Positions 1-10,900 of a DNA stretch of 64,000 nt are shown in pieces. Made by a program: the position numbers and the translations under genes. Below the pieces are notes generated by a model. It saw only the letters and a list, made by a program, of their open reading frames with translations. It was not told the origin of the DNA and did no database searches. Numbering within the stretch: position 1 is the first letter of the stretch; each line of letters opens with the position of its first letter. Origin of the DNA: Lunularia cruciata (lineage: Eukaryota; Streptophyta; Marchantiopsida; Lunulariales; Lunulariaceae); contig OX419760.1 of the NCBI GenBank assembly GCA_948567375.1, forward strand, positions 17,422,001 through 17,486,000, in the 5' to 3' direction.

Positions 1-560
1 CTCTCTGCAAACCATACTTTTGCAATCCTCTCTTCACCGTCTGAGCCACTCTCTCTGCTAAGCCATCTGCCTCAAGGTGATCTCGGGATGTAGTATGATG
101 ATCAATCAAAGCCTTGTCACACAAGACCTGAAACTCTCCCAAGAACTTTGTACCCTGATCAGTCAAAACCTCAGTTGGTGCACCAAAATGACTAAGAACT
201 CGATCCAGGAACGAGTAAGTTGTCCCTTCACTAGACTTGTCAGGAAGTACCACCAACTCAATCCACTTGAAGAAGTGCTCCACCATCACCAAAACATACC
301 GTTGATGTCTCATAGTCAATGGTAAAGGTCCAACAAAGTCCAAACTCCAACAGTAACCCAATCCCATGATAGGTAATTGGGTGTAACTGTGGCATAAGAG
401 CATTGAATAATGCTCTAACTCGGTCACAAACCACACATCTGGCAACAAATTGCTATAGCTTGGTCTGCATATTGCGCCACCAATATTGACTCTAGAGTAA
501 GCTATATGTACGCTTTACTTCAAAATGTCCTAGCTCCTCATGAGCATGACGGACCAACTA
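1..560 (-). pseudogene. Integrase of the Ty3/gypsy element (partial)
   Basis: The minus-strand translation contains an N-terminal zinc-binding HHCC region. A His-x4-His segment lies near 520-545, and a Cys-x2-Cys (CVVCD) near 430-450. The catalytic core follows: first Asp in LDFVGPL (near 340), second Asp in TDQGTKF (about 150-170) and the catalytic Glu within the ADGLAERV segment (about 50-75). This is the D,D-35-E integrase that inserts element cDNA into chromosomes. The C-terminal domain lies beyond the window, so a chromodomain cannot be judged. A stop (TAG) lies in the zinc-binding part and the frame is otherwise patchy. Confidence 0.85.
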
Positions 561-949
561 TGGTCTCTATGTTAGAAGTGGTAGTACTTGCACTCTACTA
601 TCCTCCCATACATGCAAAAGGTGTCTGCCCTCCAATCTAAACCATCTGGCTTGTTGAAGAATAAGGTCTCTCTCCTTGGGCCCAATTGTGCCACCCACAA
701 CACCAGTGCAAAGATAGTCCATCATTAAGACATCATCATGAATGTCTCGCTGAACCGTACCAATATCTTCACTCTATGGATCTGTGACCTCAATAACTCC
801 TCTTGTATGCGTTGAGAGAGATACCACCAAAGCCTCTAAAAATATACACAGAATGGCCGATGCAAGCCAACATGGCACCATCTCCTCATCTGTCTCACCA
901 TGCCAATTGCTCCGGTCTGATCCTGTAGGCTGGGACATGGGTTTCTACT

Positions 950-2403
950 CAACCCATCTGCATCACGGTTCACCACTCCAAGTCTGTGAACAACCATGAA
1001 ATCATACTCCTATAAAATTAGAGCCCATCGTGCAAGCTTCCCTGAAAGCTTGTCGGACTTCATCAACCACTTCAGTGGCTGATGATTAGTGATGAGAGTG
1101 AAGGGTTACCAAATAAGTAACATCAGAAATGTGCTACTGCCCAAACTGCTGCCAAGCACTCTCTCTCATTTGAACTATACTTTGCCTCCGCTGAATTATT
1201 GGAGCGACTAGCATAGGCCACCACAAACTCCTTCCTCTCATCATCATGTTGGGTGAGCACCGCTCCAAGCCCCAACATACTCCAATCAATATGAACCTAA
1301 AATGGTCGTCCTCTGATTGGTCTCCTCAAAATAGGAGCACATGTCAACATCTCCTTGAGCTCTACAAAAGCTCTCTCCTGCTCATCTCCCCAACACCACT
1401 CTTGTGTAAGCTTGGTTAGCTTCATCAAGGCCTTGGCAATGGCACTAAATCCTCTAACATAGCGGTGATAGAAGTTTGCCAACCCAAGGAATGCTCACAC
1501 TCTGCTCACATCCGTAGGCCAAGGAATACATGCAATAGCCTCCACCTTGGTCTGTTGAACACCAAGTCCTCTAGGGTAGATAGTGTGACCCAAATACTCA
1601 ACCTACTCATGGAAGAACCTACACTTCCCATGATGTAATTTGAGTCCATGAGATCTCAACCTCTCAAACACCTCCAACAACTGTCTCTCATGCTCCTCCA
1701 TAGTAGCACTATAGACCAAAATGTCATCAATATAACACTGAGCAAAATCTACTCTAGCTAGGATCCTATCCATGACCCTCTAGAACTCAGCAAGCAAGTT
1801 CTTTAACCCAAATAGTAAGAACCTCCACTGATATAACACATCCTTACCGTGAGGATCAATAGCCCAGAATGTTGTCTTGGACTTATCCTCCTCCCTGATT
1901 GGCAATTGATGATATCCTACTCGAAGATCCAAAGTATTGAAGACCTTTGCATGCCCAATCGCATCAAAAATCACCTCTGCTATAGGCATGGCATACCAAT
2001 CAGCCATGCTCTGTTGGTTGATAGGACAGTAATCTCCACACATCCGCCTATCTGTGTAGTTGCCATGCATATCCTTCTTGGCTGGCATCACTATCGTTGA
2101 TGCATACTCTCCACGTGAAATCTCCACCAAACCAACCTCAAAAAGGTCACTACTCCGGCTTTGAATCAATGTCCTCTCCATCTCACTATATCAATAAGGA
2201 CGTCGGAAAACTGGTGTATTGCTAGTCAGCTCAATCTGTATACCAAGTCCCTTCAAAGCACCCAAATCCTTCATATTGAAGACAAAACAACTCGTGTGCC
2301 TCCTCAAGAACCTCCAAACCCTTTGTCTTTCCTCTCTAGTAAGCTTGGGTCCAAGATCTGGCTCCCAAGTATCCTTTGTAATTGTAGCAGGAGTGGAAGA
2401 CAT
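950..2403 (-). pseudogene. Reverse transcriptase-RNase H of the Ty3/gypsy element
   Basis: The leading segment (2191-2403, minus) is the connector typical of gypsy RT N-termini. The next open stretch (1780-2181) carries the palm motifs, including the CGDY-type segment and FNTLDLRVGYHQ, where LDL contains the first catalytic Asp. The catalytic YIDDILVYS box follows near 1700-1745. The thumb and tether reads WPTDVSRV and ANFYHRYVRGFS (about 1420-1510). RNase H follows, with a [18 protein letters not shown] start near 1260-1300 and the HRLGVVNRDADGLSR end near 930-990. Stops and frame changes separate the pieces. In an intact copy this enzyme would make cDNA from the element RNA in cytoplasmic particles. 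Confidence 0.9.
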
Positions 2404-2609
2404 ATTGACTGGCTGCTACACTGGGCCCTTAGGAGCAATAGTGTCATGCTCCCGACCACTAGAGGTCCCAACCTCTGTGTGAAAAAATCCCTCCACTCTA
2501 GCTATAAGCTCCACACGTCCTCTAGCTACATCCCATGTGGACCAAGGGTGTAATCCAAGTAGCACACACTCACCTGGATGGACTCCAAGTAGACCACTCT
2601 CCTTAGTAG

Positions 2610-3700
2610 CTATTGGATGTGTCCCAAGAATACCATGTCCACTCGGTCCATCACCCCAACATGTGCCTGAATCATCTCGATAGGCACAAGGCTCACAAGT
2701 GTCCGAGTGGTGATGCCTATCAAGTGCATGCTACGCTGCTCTGCTAGGCCAATGCTCACAATCCAGGTCAAACAATTTAGGTCCATAGCCTGACCTAACA
2801 CTTGACGCTTGGATGCCTCTGACACTGCTGGAACAGCGGTAATACCGGTGCAAAAACCCATCGCTTGCTCTCTCTCATCAACGTTGGGCTCCACTAACTG
2901 CTGTAACTGTGAGTCCTAAACAAGTCTAGGTCCTCCCTCTTGAAAAGCATGAGAGCTTGGGAAACTCATGAGTGTGGGAAATGCGGCTCTAGGCTGTCCA
3001 ACTAGGTTCACCACTGCCATAGGTGACCTATCAACCACTACCACTATCTGAGACTGACATCCAACATCCAAGATGTCATCCACAAGGATATGGTCAACTC
3101 GCTGAATCCAATCATAAGCGTGTTATAGAACCTCTCTGGGTAAGAGGTTTGTCCGCCAAAGACAAAGATGATGAGCTTGTGATCCCACTTTGGCTGCATC
3201 TAACAATACATCAGGTCCTATCCAAGAATGGACCTGATGTGTACTTGCCACCACTTTGGTGCAAGAATTACCCATCAAAGGCACGTTCTCCAAAAGGTAA
3301 GCTAGAGAAACATATTGATGAACCTGGAGATGTCGTAGTATCCGTAGCGTCTCCCAAAACACACCAGAACAAGGATCCTAAAGACCCAAACCATGGCTTG
3401 CAAGTGTATGTCCTTGACATGGCCATCTAGAAATCACCAAGTGAATAGGCCCATGTCTCTCTAGGTCATGCGCCCCCAATAAGGAAGTAGGACCTTTTGG
3501 TAACCTTTGACTGTTGATATTGGTAACAACTCTGGATACCGATAGGCCAAGTGTGCCACATGATGTAGAGAGACTCGCCTAGTAGTCTCATCTCTCTCTA
3601 CATACAAGTACCTCTGTACTCGGATACCCGCCTGTAACACCGCAGCTAGTCCGGTGTTGATCCCACCAAACAACTCCAATAGGTAGATCCCCTCTACTGG
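2610..3700 (-). pseudogene. Cytosine-5 DNA methyltransferase domain (DNMT3-like) inside the retrotransposon pol
   Basis: All key C5-methyltransferase motifs appear on the minus strand in canonical order. Motif I, LLELFGGINTG (3650-3682), is the S-adenosylmethionine loop. An acidic YVERDE motif II follows (about 3587-3604). Motif IV is ISRWPCQGHT with the catalytic Cys (PCQ at 3414-3422). Motif VI is YLLENVP (ENV at 3282-3290). A motif VIII-like DAAKVGSQAHHLCLW lies at about 3155-3200. Motif IX/X segments are EREQAMGFCTG and RQVLGQAMD (about 2780-2880). The order I to X and the ENV and D-A-x-x-V spacing recall DNMT3, not the rearranged DRM enzymes. The domain would transfer methyl groups to cytosine C5. 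Frame changes occur near 3470 and stops near 3378 and 3123. The motif VIII arginines appear lost (His and Cys instead), so the copy is probably inactive. Confidence 0.87.
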
Positions 3701-4123
3701 ATACCACCAAGTAATGAGTGTGGTATCCAAAGGTGTCAAATCAATTGCATCTAGAGGCTCATCCTCACACTCATCTCTTGATGGTACAAAGGTTCCACTC
3801 CAAGCCTGCTGCACCAACTGATCTGCATGCTGCTGCAATGCCTCCTCTGAACTCCACAATGGAACATCCAAGGTGGATGGAACAATCCTACTCGTACTCC
3901 AAAGCCGAGTGATCTCCTCTGGTACTGGAGTATCCTCTGCATGGGCGTTCCTCTCCAACAAGTCACTAGGCCAAGTAATTGCACCACTAAAAGCTAAAAT
4001 TGATGTTGCCCTGGTCCCTGACTGTAGTGAGCCAAGACTGCCACTACTGAAGCATACTGGTAGGTGACATACCCGTCCCTCACCAAACTGCCAATGAGGT
4101 CTATAAGAGGTTGTCTCTCCCAA
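3700..4123 (-). other. Linker between retropepsin and methyltransferase, unassigned
   Basis: About 140 residues are open in one minus-strand frame directly before methyltransferase motif I. The first 20-25 residues (RPHWQFGEGRV and following) look like the tail of the retropepsin region. The rest is acidic and Glu/Asp-rich (for example EDTPVPEE, SSEEALQQHADQL, RDECEDEPLDAIDL) and has no motif I recognise. It could be a flexible spacer, a processing region or a degenerate targeting domain attached to the methylase. The frame is continuous with motif I, which argues for one polyprotein. Confidence 0.5.
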
Positions 4124-4775
4124 TAGTCAATGCTAAAACCCATGGGGTATAACATTGCTCCCCAACTAGCACATCATATGACTCAGCTATCGTCGTAATA
4201 GCTTGAGCTCTCACCACCGAGCTATCAGTCGGATGACCAGGCTGAACTTGGACAAGAAGCTCCCCACGTGTGATGTACTATGTCAAACCACCACCTAGAG
4301 ATTTTTGGATTTGAAATTGACACCTCTCTACATTGGTCTTCCGTAACTCCAGACCAACAACTACAGCCTTCCCTAACATAAGGGGTTACGCACCAGAGTC
4401 TAACAAGACTCTCTGTGATGTATAGACCTTCCTTGAAGGTCGCACCAAATGAAAAATCCCCCTCTGGATATCCAATAAGATAACACCAGGTGTGAACCGT
4501 GCTCTCTCAAAGGCCGGTCTAGCTGGCAACTCCTCCATTCTAGCCGCTGCTGCCTGCCATAAACCACTGGTCGTTGAACAAATCCCATGCTCCTCAACCA
4601 AGTCAGCTCTACTATCAACCACCTCTGCCCTAGTAGTAGGAACCGCATCATCCCTACTCTCACAAAGTGTGGCAGCCAACCGGAACATTGGGGTTGGGTC
4701 AACTCCCAATGTAAACATGTCACTGGCCAAAAACAAAGGACGCTGCATATTCAGTTGAGCCGCCCCCAACATCAT
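4124..4775 (-). pseudogene. Retropepsin (aspartic protease) region of the Ty3/gypsy element
   Basis: The active-site motif LLDSGA lies at 4389-4406 on the minus strand and is followed at once by a stop (4386-4388, TAA where CAA would fit). Beyond it the same frame reads PLMLGKAVVVGLEL, the usual flap-side continuation of plant gypsy proteases whose motif begins DSGAQP. A DVLVGEQCYTPWVL segment follows, which looks like the closing part of the fold. Upstream (4406-4775) is an open linker to gag. In an intact element this enzyme would cut the Gag-Pol polyprotein into working proteins. Confidence 0.75.
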
Positions 4776-4805
4776 GCTAGACTTAGTTTGTGTAGTAGTA
4801 GGTGA

Positions 4806-6475
4806 CTAACTAGCATGTACTCCATCACCACCTACCACACCTGCACTTGGACGTCTAGGAACCATGGATGTTGTCTGTAATGCCTCAGATAGCATGAAAG
4901 ATTGGGGAAGTCTGACCTGTCTCTCAACCTCTCCTCTTTGTGGGTCCAACTCCACTGATGGTCCTCTAGGCTTTGGAGCACATACTGCACTCCTAGTCAC
5001 TGCTACATATGCATCCACCTGTGCTACTCTGCACATGAAGTCCAAATCATCTCTATCACCAGCATATGAGGTGGAAGCCTCAGCACCCTAATCTGATCTC
5101 CTCTAAGCAATAGCCATACTAGCCAATCTCTGCTCCAACTGCTCAATCCGTGTAGCCATAGTTGTGTTAGAAGTAAGGGCAGGTACTGCACTCCTACTAG
5201 GTGTAGATCCTCTACCACCACTTCTACCACCTCATCCTCCATGAATTGGATCACCTCTACTACCTGCCATAGGAGCCCTACCACTACGTAACTCCGGGTG
5301 TAGGTCAAAACACCGGTCACTAGTGTGACCAAATCTGTGGCAATGCTCACACTGCCTCTGTGTTGGCTATGATGCACCAGAGGTATCAGGTCCGCTGCCC
5401 TGAGTACACTCTCTCCTATGGTGAGGTCCACCACAAGTCCAACAAGCAACACTACCACTCATTGGCTGTTGCTGACCTGCAAATGAAGGTAAGGGTCTAA
5501 CTCCACTAGGCCCTCCACTCGCTTCATAGGATCTGGGCTGTCCACCTTGTCCTCAAAAACCAACTGGGCATGGTGCACTCTACTGCACTCTAGAAGAAGT
5601 CACAGCTGTGGATGAGGTCTCCCTACCAAATCCAGATGTCACCACTCTCTCCTCCACCATGTTAAGCTCAATACGCTCAGCCAAACCAAAGACCACTGCC
5701 AAAGTAGGTGAAGTAGCCTGTAACAACGTAGCATCATGAACTCTATGTTGCAACTCCCTGTCCAGTATCCCATACCAAAAGTGGACTGCTTGGGCCTCAA
5801 TAACTCCTTGAGTGAAACTGATCAGCCGCCTCATGCGAGTATGCCTCACGTAGGCTCTCTCCATCCTTCCGCTGGAACTCCTGCAAGCTCCTTAGCTTGC
5901 CAGTCCATACTCCTTGGTAGTTTTGCCTCAAACACAAGAAGAACTCCACCATGGGGTTAAACCCCGGTACCACACCACCTCCTGCAGCGGTACCTCCACT
6001 CGTGGTAACACTATCTCCAACTAGTGCACCTCCACTAGCTCCACCAACACTACTCAAGCTAGAACTCGTAGGTACAACCGATCTACTCTTGGCCACCAAG
6101 CCTGAAGTGATAGAGACATAGTTTGGAGACCAATATTGTCTCCATAACTCAATCTCTTCCAAATGGGCTCTCTTGAACTCATGGTAGTCGTCCATTGGCG
6201 GACCCTCCAAGTGCTGAAATAACCCCTTCCATGCCATGAAAGGTGTGAACAAAGTCGGGTTCCGCATCTACTGCAGATTACACCAACTATCAAACTCTTG
6301 GATGAAGTCATCCAACTCAATGGTACCCACTGTACCAGAGTAACGTCTAGGGCCTTTGGAGGCCCCATAAATCTCATCCATGTCCCACAACAACGGGTGC
6401 GGACACAACAAGTGCACTCTCAACTAGATCAGCTCTTGTGTCAAACTTCAACTCAAAGTCAATCTCCTTCCTCAT
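4806..6475 (-). pseudogene. Gag of the Ty3/gypsy element with two CCHC zinc knuckles
   Basis: A capsid-like region (about 5700-6380) includes the motif RKDGESLREAYTRMRRLI across a frame change near 5830, as in the Retrotrans_gag family. Two zinc knuckles follow in one frame: CWTCGGPHHRREC (5406-5444) and CEHCHRFGHTSDRC (5310-5351). They are separated by a single in-frame TAG (5367-5369). Another TAG (6268-6270) splits the N-terminal part. A likely original start is the ATG at 6473-6475, 16 bases after the primer binding site. Gag would form the virus-like particle and bind element RNA. Confidence 0.82.
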
Positions 6476-6490
6476 TGGGACCTAAGATAC

Positions 6491-6502
6491 ATGCTGATAC
6501 CA
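6491..6502 (-). promoter_or_regulatory. Primer binding site (tRNA-iMet type)
   Basis: On the minus strand the site reads TGGTATCAGCAT. The first nine bases match the plant initiator-Met tRNA primer-site consensus (TGGTATCAGAGC); the last three differ. It sits 16 bases before the likely gag ATG, the expected place just inside the 5' LTR. No clear CA end is visible directly next to it, so the LTR junction is uncertain. Confidence 0.6.
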
Positions 6503-6640
6503 AGCGCAACTCCAAGTAAACCCACTGTGTACTGCATGGCTAACTCCTCTGGAATCCCCAAAGAACTCTGTCGTGACTAAGTAACCGCAACAGCAAACCA
6601 GAACCACCAATTGCAACCACAAGTCGCAATTGCAAGTACC

Positions 6641-6780
6641 CCACCAAGTGCCAACACCACCAAGTGCCAACACTAACCAAGCACCACCAAGTGCCAACAC
6701 CAACCGAGCACCACCAAGTGCCAACACCAATCGAGCACCACCAAGTGCCAATACCAATTGAGCACCACCAAGTGCCAAAA
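6641..6780 (-). repeat. 27-bp tandem repeat in the probable 5' LTR or leader
   Basis: The segment CCACCAAGTG recurs at 6684, 6711, 6738 and 6765 with an exact 27-bp period, and two shorter-spaced copies start at about 6641 and 6656. Units differ by a few substitutions. On the minus strand the repeat is open and translates as nine-residue units (LVLALGGAR), but nothing suggests it is really protein-coding. Its position just 5' of the primer site puts it in the R/U5 part of the LTR of the gypsy element, if the LTR is where I place it. Confidence 0.85.
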
Positions 6781-6802
6781 CTAGCATAACATTATCCACC
6801 AA

Positions 6803-7950
6803 TATAACTGTAACTAAGACAACTATACTAGGGGCAAGGGCAACCTATAACCTACCATCACAACACGCATTCTCACGGTTTGTAGATCATCGCTTCCTAC
6901 CTCACCGGAGAGAAACAAAGATAGTTTGACTGGTCATCACTCCAGCCTCACTATCGAGAGCACACCAGAGCACCAACACTCAAAATTCAGGGCACCTCAC
7001 ACAAACACAGTGCACAAACAGGAAGCAAAGAATGGAGGGGGTCCAATCACACAAATGCTAAACAACAACCTTCTATCTTATAAATCAACACAAGACCGAC
7101 TCTGCCACCATTTGGCATTTGACCAAATTGGAGTACATATCTATTTCCTGAGCTGCAAGGATCACCGAGGATCAGTTTCAAGTTCTTTCCGCCAAAATCT
7201 GACGTAACTCCTTCACAAAATCTGATGTAAAATCTGACGTAAATCCCTAAAAATGGTTGACCACTAAATCTTTAGTTAACTCTTCACTCGAGCCAAATTG
7301 GAAAATTTGGTTTCGTACAATCTTCAATTCGTGAGAATCTCTCCCAACTCCACCTTCAATTTCAGTTTCTCAGCTCAACTCATAACAAATTGGTCCTAAG
7401 CTCAAAATCACAACTACCGCTTGAAAATTGCTTCTCCTCTGGCTCCAAATTTTGCCAGCGATTCTGCACACACACTCTCTTAGGGAAATCTGAACTACTC
7501 GATCGAGACACCACGATCCATTGAGCTTGGAGATACCACCAACACTCGTAGTTCTTGCATCCAATTTCCCCCTGACTCACTTCTCTGATGTAATCAGATT
7601 GTTTACCACTCGAATCAATCAAACTCAATCAATACTTGATGTGATCCTCAACAACTTGCAAACAATAGGGCACTGATTACAGTCAAGCCACACCCACTCT
7701 AGCATAGAGACTCCAAGTGATGCTCGCCGGCTTTCTGTCCACTCTAGCCAAGAACTCGAAGGCTCAACATCGGAGAAGTGAGCTCTATGGAGCTACACTC
7801 CCAGGGTATACCCTTGATTTTGACCTAGGTCTCCTCCCAACAGTCCCGCTGACGGCGGTGTGGATGGTGCGGACGGTGCAAGTGACGGTGGGTCCCACCA
7901 TGAAGTCAGTACCCTAAACCTGAAATCTGACTGTTGGAAAGTAGTCTATG
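6803..7950 (-). other. Probable remainder of the 5' LTR of the gypsy element
   Basis: No protein gene is supported here. The stretch is base-rich and less AT-biased than the DNA to its right, which becomes AT-rich after about 7.95 kb. It lies directly upstream, in element orientation, of the primer site, so most of it is probably LTR. The outer boundary cannot be proven without the second LTR, which is outside the window. Confidence 0.4.
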
Positions 7951-10900
7951 AGTAATGGCCAAAATGCCTCTAACTACTATCACTAGAACTCCAGTGTCCG
8001 AGCATCTAGATGTGAAACTACAAATGGCGTGACACCCGTGAGTAGAACATGTAAGCACAATTCACAAGCTTGCCTTCATACATCTTGTGAAAGAAGATGG
8101 CTTGGGTACTCATTAAGTAAGTTTTCTATTTGTGATGGAATAATTTCATAACCACTTCTACAATTGCTCATTGAGTTAGATCCTTATAGTTGAGAACTTG
8201 CCAACCATTGTTGCAATTATAAGGTTCACTAAAGGTGTCCTTGATCTTTTTGATCAACTCCCAATCATAGAACTTAGTATCAATTATTATTGCTCCTATG
8301 CATTTGGATCAAGGACATTCCTCCTATTCTCCTTTGTTGAGCCCATGGGGTTCCCTCTCATGTCCTCACTACTCTTCTCCATTTGGCTCATTGTCTCATG
8401 GATGATCTCAAAATTGGTTGCATCCCAATCCTAGTAAGAATCCCATATGCTTGCTTTGAATTAAATATCTCCTATAATACACTACCCAAGTATTTGTTGT
8501 TGGGAATCAAAGGATGGCTTTGGTGGCCTTCTTCATGGGTTAATAAATAAACACCATTCTCTAAAACGACTAAGAAACAAAAAGCAAAGGTTGGGCTTTG
8601 AAGATTAGAAAACTATAACAATAAAGGATCAAATTCAAGATTGACTATACTTAATTGATCACTTGCAATGCAAAAAGTGGAAATGGTCATTCCATACTTT
8701 GTTTTATAGGCAAAGTCTTTTGTCACTCATATATAAAGTTGTTGAAGTCATTTTATAGAAATTTGTTGGGTCATCCTTCTTCCTTGTCACATTCAATGCC
8801 AAGTATTGCTCATATATGCAAACCATCACTCTCCTCCAATGGTCTTGGTTCAGATGCGGCCATTGGCTGAATGCCAATGAACCTCTTCAAAATGCAAATC
8901 ACCCTTTTTGATTTAGAATAATCATCCTTGATTTTTTGGTGGCACATTCAAATTGGTGCTTGCCATGAGTTGGGTCTAAAAAGAAGTACAAAGGGGCTAA
9001 CTCATTTGGCTGAGTTTCAGTTGTTGGGTGAAGTGCTACTAAGCTAAATGTCACCCTGTACAAAAACCTTTGGGCTAAAGTCCTTCTCCCACGAGCCATT
9101 CATCATTGAGCACCCTTTGGTCCCAAGTTTGTTTCCTATTCTTTTTCTTTTAGGTTTTTTGCCAACCTACACTCTATCATTCAGGTTGTTGGCTCAAGAA
9201 TCACAACTCTAAAGAATTCATTATTTACAATTTTCTAGCCAAAATGGTAGAATAGACTAGTCTTCCTCATAAACAAAATTGAAATTAATAGATAAATAAA
9301 GATTAACATAAAATGGCAAGCTTCATACTCTCATTACCCATTTACCTATACTTGGGGATCAAAGGATCACCTCAAGGATTTTCCACATTTCCTTTTTTGC
9401 TCAATCTATCTTTCTACCAAGGGTGCTACAAATACAAAGAACTATTGACAACAAGGGGTTAAAAGTGCTTGAATGTTCTTTAGAATGGTATTGGAAAAAA
9501 TTTCAAATGTGAAATTGATTGGATTGCACTTATTTTTATAGTCAGGGTTCTTTGAAAATTGTACTCAATGGATAAGCAATCATTGTCTTAATCTAAGAAC
9601 TCTATGATGTTCACCAACCATCCTTGGCATTGGTTCTTTATCTGGTGGCAATGACATTCAAATTGATATACATACTTTGGTTCCAAGGCCCCATGACTAT
9701 ATGATAGGGTTAGACATTTTGACATAATAAGCCTCATTTGAAGCTCCAAAATTTACGTCTAGTGTGGACTGATTGGAGTTTTAGGAGACCGGTTGTAAGC
9801 CTCTAGGCTAGAGCAAAGATTGTTCATACTAGTATTCTTTGTACTTGACTCATCTTTGGACCTGACTTTCTTTGTTCCCATTTCTTTCAGCTGAATATTT
9901 TTTTGGTAATGTCTTCTTTGTATCCAAACAAGTGCATATATCATATCCTAGGAGTACCCATATAAGAGGTTTCTTCCCATGATAATGAAATAATTTGCTC
10001 TATCTTCATCAATCTATCAACATCAAACAAAACAAAATTGCAATAAAACAAGAAAAAATTGCAAATTTCACAAAACAGTGGGTACCACAGCTAAAAAAAT
10101 GCTTATAAACTCTATGAGTAAATCTATAAAATGCTTCATTTTGGTAGAAACACAATCTCAAGAAAGTGATTATTTTGAAGAGAACTGAAAATTGAAAATG
10201 GTGAAAATTGAAAATGGTTGAAATTTTGAAATTGAACTTAATTTATGCTTATTTGAGGAAGATGATGACCACTTTAAGAAAGACCATACAATTCTCAACA
10301 TTTTTCAATTCTCAAAATGGGAGATTTAAGGGTGCACTCAAGTTCAAAGGAGAATACTATTAAAAGAGATATTTTTACAATTGAAGAAATGCAAAGTATA
10401 GATAACAAGGAGCAACTAATAAACTTCTTTGGTCTAAAGGAGCCAAGCATAAGAAGAATAAATTAAATTTTTACTAAAGTACCAAACTATGCCAACTTTC
10501 TTAAATTGACAAGAGAGAAATCAAAGATATGGGATTATCTATTGTAGTTTTGATCAAAAGAATCATGGAGTCAATTGAATCTTGAGATTTAGACAAGGAA
10601 AAGGATTCAATGGTGTTTTTTGGGAATTGAGGATTGAGTATGTTATTCTCAAAAATCAAACCTGTGATTTAGTACAATTACCAAAATTAAAAAAGTCTTT
10701 TAGCTCCAACAAATCTATAAGCTAAAATTCAAATATGATTGAAGCTTAAACAAGCTAATGGTGCAAGGATATTCTCTAATAAAAGGTGAAGATTTGGTGA
10801 GATATTTAATCTTTACTTGTGTGGCTAAATTGAACGTAATACCTAGTAATATTTCTTTAGCTACACAAATTAGTTAGAAAATATATCAAATAGATGTAAA

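Follow-up and report, generated by a model that had tools for sequence, protein, structure and literature searches.

We analysed a window of 64,000 nucleotides from Lunularia cruciata (C10:17422001-17486000, in a genome of 565,766,749 bases), which begins within a Ty3/gypsy copy lying on the minus strand (1..8034, 5' end at 8034). The copy runs on past the window start to C10:17420476 (position 977 of L044) and is complete, with a total of 9,559 bp; CGGG stands on both sides of it as a 4-bp target duplication. Its 5' terminal repeat, A1, starts with TGTCACG (7591..8034) and is adjoined by a putative self-primer site (7577..7590), while the repeats B1, A2 and B2 are found outside the window, in L044. 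Along the same strand, a frameshift-broken gag region (5270..6676, approximate end) with two CCHC zinc knuckles (5310..5444; CWTCGGPHHRREC at 5406-5444 and CEHCHRFGHTSDRC at 5310-5351) and the protease active-site motif VLLDSGA (4389..4409) lie upstream of a full-length DNMT3-type cytosine-5 methyltransferase (2712..3739). Reverse transcriptase (RT) with RNase H (1075..2202, YIDDILVY at 1711-1734) and an integrase region in frameshifted pieces (2..929) lie downstream, and the remaining integrase and a PHD finger are located beyond the window (L044, 1807-2601). At the boundary between methylase and RT, an in-frame TAG (2416..2418) is followed by CAGCCA, giving the pattern UAG CARYYA of a putative readthrough stop. 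The window copy is dead because its methylase carries one frameshift and three in-frame stops. Between its two A repeats, 46 of 444 sites are different (K80 0.113), and in the comparison with copy L009 the longest aligned piece showed 92% identity over 6,720 bp and the 5' pieces 76-80%. The copy represents an old member of a very abundant Ty3/gypsy-type family with a DNMT3-like methyltransferase in the polyprotein.

The first-pass annotation had reported six C5-methyltransferase motifs here, on the same strand as gag and protease upstream and RT, RNase H and integrase downstream, and both the motifs and this order were recovered. On the minus strand we found motif I LLELFGGINTG (3650-3682), motif IV WPCQGHT (3405-3425), motif VI YLLENVP (3279-3299), motif VIII DAAKVGSQAHHLCLW (3156-3200), motif IX EREQAMGF (2853-2876) and motif X RQVLGQAMD (2781-2807), with one frameshift placing motif I in a different frame from the other five. 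Residues 1-346 of the L009 methylase were covered by window segments 3739-3485 and 3509-2712 with 87% and 83% identity (tblastn, 2.6e-163). The PF00145 search proposed in that annotation succeeded with the methylase domain of the open copy L009 (31.2 bits, cut-off 22) but not with the two broken window ORFs (3461-4123 and 2610-2894), each of which alone gave no Pfam match. The best profile and fold match of the element methylase was DNMT3, and a seven-row methylase alignment contained 30 invariant columns, including the PC cysteine and EN.

In a phylogenetic tree that was unrooted, had long branches and contained no DRM, CMT or DNMT1 rows, 31 retroelement methylases clustered together (100/100), separate from 12 plant host DNMT3s, which formed a group of their own (100/99). 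No protein among the matches listed in the search for methylase relatives was named DNMT3, and the named plant DNMT3 sequences were taken from a separate search. Grouping with retroelement enzymes and apart from host DNMT3s in this way agrees with the suggestion that a land plant acquired or retained a related element, and the single group points to an old capture that may have travelled with the element. The same genome also contains multi-exon host DNMT3-like genes (L001 and L004), and exons of a rearranged DRM-like and of a CMT-like methyltransferase (L002 and L003), the DRM and CMT labels being given by eye. In a quick tree without bootstrap, the L001 exons grouped with DNMT3b-like proteins of Marchantia and Riccia, falling outside them (100 for five rows). 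Host DNMT3 of mosses has been treated before (PMC6453930).

To count the family, a motif-IV 21-mer was searched with at most two mismatches, and 2,081 + 2,101 = 4,182 sites, fragments included, were found genome-wide compared with 0 for the reversed control, so the match is not due to chance. If all of these sites were full length, the family would occupy about 41 Mb, or 7% of the genome, which is an upper figure. A protein search with the methylase scored 117 places among 13,824 first-look candidates, all with at least 96% identity across 341 or more of the 346 residues. From 4,134 candidates found with RT DNA we selected the 40 copies most like L009, and methylase sequence was present at the expected place in 39 of them: 20 coincided in position with methylase sites already located, and in 19 of the remaining 20 a 201-base piece contained methylase sequence, the exception being L060, where it was absent from the piece examined. 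Relatives were found in Marchantia, Sphagnum, Closterium and Calypogeia; a scan of viral contigs gave no relative. The methylase therefore belongs to the element, since the window copy is complete with its CGGG duplication, 39 of 40 copies carry the enzyme and other species have relatives; its presence only at this locus, which would have told against the first reading, does not hold. We regard the anatomy of the element, the DNMT3 class of the enzyme and its membership in the element as practically certain. Multi-exon host DNMT3 genes do exist in this genome, and local capture of a host DNMT3, or insertion of a gypsy element into a DNMT gene at this place, is conceivable, but the separation of the host and retroelement groups in the unrooted tree, the thousands of motif sites and the relatives in other species all oppose such an event, to which we give almost no credence. 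Local host capture and a lone insertion were both rejected on the tree separation and the 39 of 40 copies.

A more distant relative, L045 (CADCWO010000201.1, 1-9285), is a 9,285-bp retroelement contig and the one locus found in a genome-contig search. It is filed under a cyanobacterial MAG, and its ends overlap by 127 bases, so that the assembly looks circular; it is most likely eukaryotic contamination of that MAG. Identity to L045 was 52% for methylase, 45% for protease, 32% for the gag core, 66% for RT and 75% for integrase, and identity to Marchantia was 72% for methylase, 72% for the gag core, 62% for protease and 79% for RT.

We then fetched 20 copies, picked for long frames, from 123 Pfam matches. 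ORF1 encodes Gag, protease and methylase (1,428 residues in L009), and a UAG divides it from the same-frame ORF2, which encodes RT, RNase H, a DDE integrase and a C-terminal PHD finger. In L009, the RT, RNase H, H2C2, rve and PHD domains of ORF2 all exceeded their Pfam cut-offs, and an extra stop lies close to the ORF2 start. Many family copies are broken. In L013 and L014 both frames are open on either side of exactly one TAG. The TAG was present in 25 of 25 stretches (L005-L028 and the window; L005 was located only by a pattern already including TAG), and CARYYA followed it in 24, the exception being L028 with CAGCTT. The exact UAG motif with its flanks occurred at 705 + 702 = 1,407 sites genome-wide, and the reversed control gave 0. 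Among 18 listed ORF1 relatives, some of them partial models or cut at contig ends, 15 predicted proteins extend 54-124 residues past the methylase, and the other three extend 0 or 24.

UAG CARYYA is the motif of TMV-type stop readthrough, and it stands between two same-frame ORFs both in this family and in L045, whose order is ORF1, TAG CAA TCA with the UAG at the same place, and a same-frame ORF2 with a PHD-like end. The UAG of the element is a putative readthrough stop in a strong context. Alternatively, RT and integrase may be produced by splicing, re-initiation or a separate message, with the UAG context an accident of descent, in keeping with the Marchantia gene models P0006 and P0008, which fuse methylase and RT and lack the stretch between them, and which are predictions only. 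This we consider unlikely: UAG with CARYYA recurs in L045, where the methylase is only 52% identical and the flanking codons are different, and the frames on either side of the UAG stay in register in the family copies and in L045.

Fourteen copies were followed to both ends, and all 14 had the repeat order A-coding-B-A-B, with A only on the 5' side, and ends of TGTC..GACA (TG..CA type). A 4-bp target duplication was clear in 12 of the 14; L021 had no clear one, and that of L019, which adjoins another copy, was left unjudged. The divergence between A1 and A2 was 0.002-0.030 in these copies, far below the 0.113 of the window copy. RT and RNase H before an integrase with H2C2 and rve (L009), TG..CA ends and a short target duplication are Ty3/gypsy characters, and two whole, like LTRs at both ends are absent. 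Membership in DIRS was rejected on the rve/DDE integrase, which is not a tyrosine recombinase, and on the 4-bp duplications, though the split A-coding-B-A-B repeats fit. Beside two copies we observed extra same-family repeat pieces, reverse or tandem (L025 204-821 and L019 10077-10186), which are nested or adjacent insertions, and another copy is adjoined by a different gypsy-like element with a 732-residue open frame (L017 7704-9899, minus strand), which supplied one row in the RT tree.

The inner B/A junction forms the palindrome GACAGCTGTC, with one base different in some copies, and a G tract lies before B1; L045 shares an identical 15-base junction, ACGACAGCTGTCACG, and a similar G tract. 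Exact pairing between the site adjoining A1 and a segment within A extends for 13-16 nt in 13 of the 14 copies and for 10 nt in L024, and in every one of these copies it was longer than in any of 200 shuffles. In the window copy the longest exact pairing of this site is 10 nt, a value without a shuffle control. The primer site of L045 pairs with its own upstream segment through different letters, and this retention of pairing despite changed letters is the best sign of probable self-priming. At the A2/B2 junction of L021 there are five extra bases of the primer site, which may resemble the junction of a two-LTR circle.

For variation inside the genome, we compared shared and singleton variants in the 20 copies picked for long open frames. 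The N/S ratio of the methylase was 0.93 for shared variants vs 1.92 for singletons (p 0.04, uncorrected, one of eight regions), RT and integrase showed no difference (p 1.0), and the eight regions together gave p 3.5e-5; shared variants also contain stops. Selection on the methylase inside the genome is accordingly only weakly shown. C/T differences between A1 and A2 were found at 43 of 1,024 CG, 30 of 1,450 CHG and 22 of 3,747 CHH sites. The observed/expected ratio of CpG was 0.45-0.51 in the 14 copies, flanks included, compared with 0.34 for the window copy and 0.65 for the remainder of the window. Both the CpG depletion and the order CG > CHG > CHH are also what methylation by the host would produce.

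From these features we infer a replication cycle. The methylase would be made at the level of Gag, and RT and integrase at a lower level by UAG readthrough; the element RNA would prime itself by pairing of the segment of A with the site adjoining A1; and a product like a two-LTR circle would open at its palindromic B/A junction, after which the integrase would insert it. The solved chains closest to the PHD finger of the element are the PHD fingers of CHD4, KMT2D and KMT2C; these are histone-tail readers, and the finger of the element may steer insertion to histone H3. Within this cycle the methylase may modify the cDNA of the element itself, either ahead of insertion or during it, which we consider its likeliest role, at about even chances; the simplest benefit would be the delivery of insertions that are already quiet and hence tolerated.

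It is also possible, if somewhat unlikely, that a real and retained methylase acts mainly on other substrates than cDNA, either host chromatin at or near the target site or the element RNA. The polyprotein system ends in a PHD finger of the histone-tail reader type, and therefore the enzyme could work on chromatin in concert with insertion; for LINE enzymes, methylation of retroelement RNA has been raised (PMC5890265). Against this, the methylase stands before the UAG and would mostly be made without the integrase-PHD part. In addition, DNMT3 relatives are DNA enzymes. A methylase that is a passenger without a present role, in a family that is young and successful for other reasons, would fit the many broken copies and the weakly shown selection within the genome, but its catalytic motifs have been kept over deep divergence, with 30 invariant columns, 52% identity to L045, 72% to Marchantia and one old group, which makes a passenger very unlikely. 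Returning to methylation of the cDNA, we tentatively propose one ancient streptophyte lineage of split-repeat Ty3/gypsy elements, in which DNMT3, encoded ahead of a TMV-type readthrough stop and made as a particle protein at the level of Gag, would pre-methylate the cDNA, integration would be PHD-steered, and self-silencing may have allowed a single family to spread to thousands of copies and contributed to the expansion of a liverwort genome.

Plants silence transposons by DNA methylation, and an element with its own de novo-type methylase at thousands of sites therefore allows a sharp test of whether a transposon gains from methylating itself or is held back by it. Tractable bryophytes such as Marchantia carry the family, and the recurring UAG context and primer pairing offer direct handles on expression and replication. 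It may also bear on the size of the Lunularia genome, which is twice that of Marchantia and has been ascribed to Ty3/Gypsy bursts, with 2,827 full-length LTR elements in Lunularia vs 222 in Marchantia polymorpha (PMC9985172); the words 'methyltransferase' and 'DNMT' do not occur in the main text of that paper.

This kind of element is already known, because DNMT-bearing retroelements have been reported: DIRS and LINE elements of Symbiodinium and a Gypsy Pol ORF of Klebsormidium carry DNMTs (PMC5890265), and streptophyte and dinoflagellate retroelements are described as carrying DNMT3 (PMC12344493). Among the literature matches listed, titles and abstract openings describe no such element in a bryophyte. 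The bryophyte range, the copy number, the position of the methylase ahead of a putative readthrough stop, the combination of a PHD finger with a methylase and the conserved replication signals were not found described in the literature searched. The closest system by description is KnitGypsy-Dnmt3 of Klebsormidium nitens, a Gypsy coding region with a DNMT3-class methylase and, according to the figure legend, a DIRS-like repeat order (PMC5890265). Its enzyme gave no methylation in yeast, which its authors judged inconclusive (PMC5890265), and no entry among the database matches listed was named as the K. nitens element. As described, it carries the DNMT in the Pol polyprotein ORF, whereas the liverwort methylase lies before the UAG in the Gag-protease ORF; it has fewer copies, compared with 4,182 motif sites here; and the PHD finger and bryophyte hosts of the liverwort element are unlike its description. 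SymbioDIRS-Dnmt3 and SymbioLINE-Dnmt of Symbiodinium are likewise retrotransposons with DNMTs, but belong to tyrosine recombinase or LINE classes and are reported as independent acquisitions (PMC5890265).

The metagenome gypsy proteins P0025, P0026, P0027 and P0034 share RT, RNase H, H2C2, rve, PHD and a methylase of the same group, but place the methylase between RNase H and integrase. P0026 and P0027 differ further in an extra C-terminal stretch. Past the PHD finger, P0026, P0027 and P0039 contain (V/L)DP(W/T)AG(R/T)G, with TSPWF in P0027, and by eye this stretch looks like a second, different methyltransferase; Pfam assigned the C-terminal stretch of P0026 and P0027 to no family. Tf1/sushi LTR elements are self-primed, with a primer site complementary to their own RNA, and the primer site of the liverwort element would likewise pair with its own RNA; it differs from them in its split A-coding-B-A-B repeats and in a pairing segment that lies inside A and is only a candidate for the RNA start. 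Chromoviruses are Ty3/gypsy elements with a chromatin-reader domain behind the integrase, and the liverwort element likewise has a chromatin reader at this position, but in it a PHD finger replaces the chromodomain and a methylase is added.
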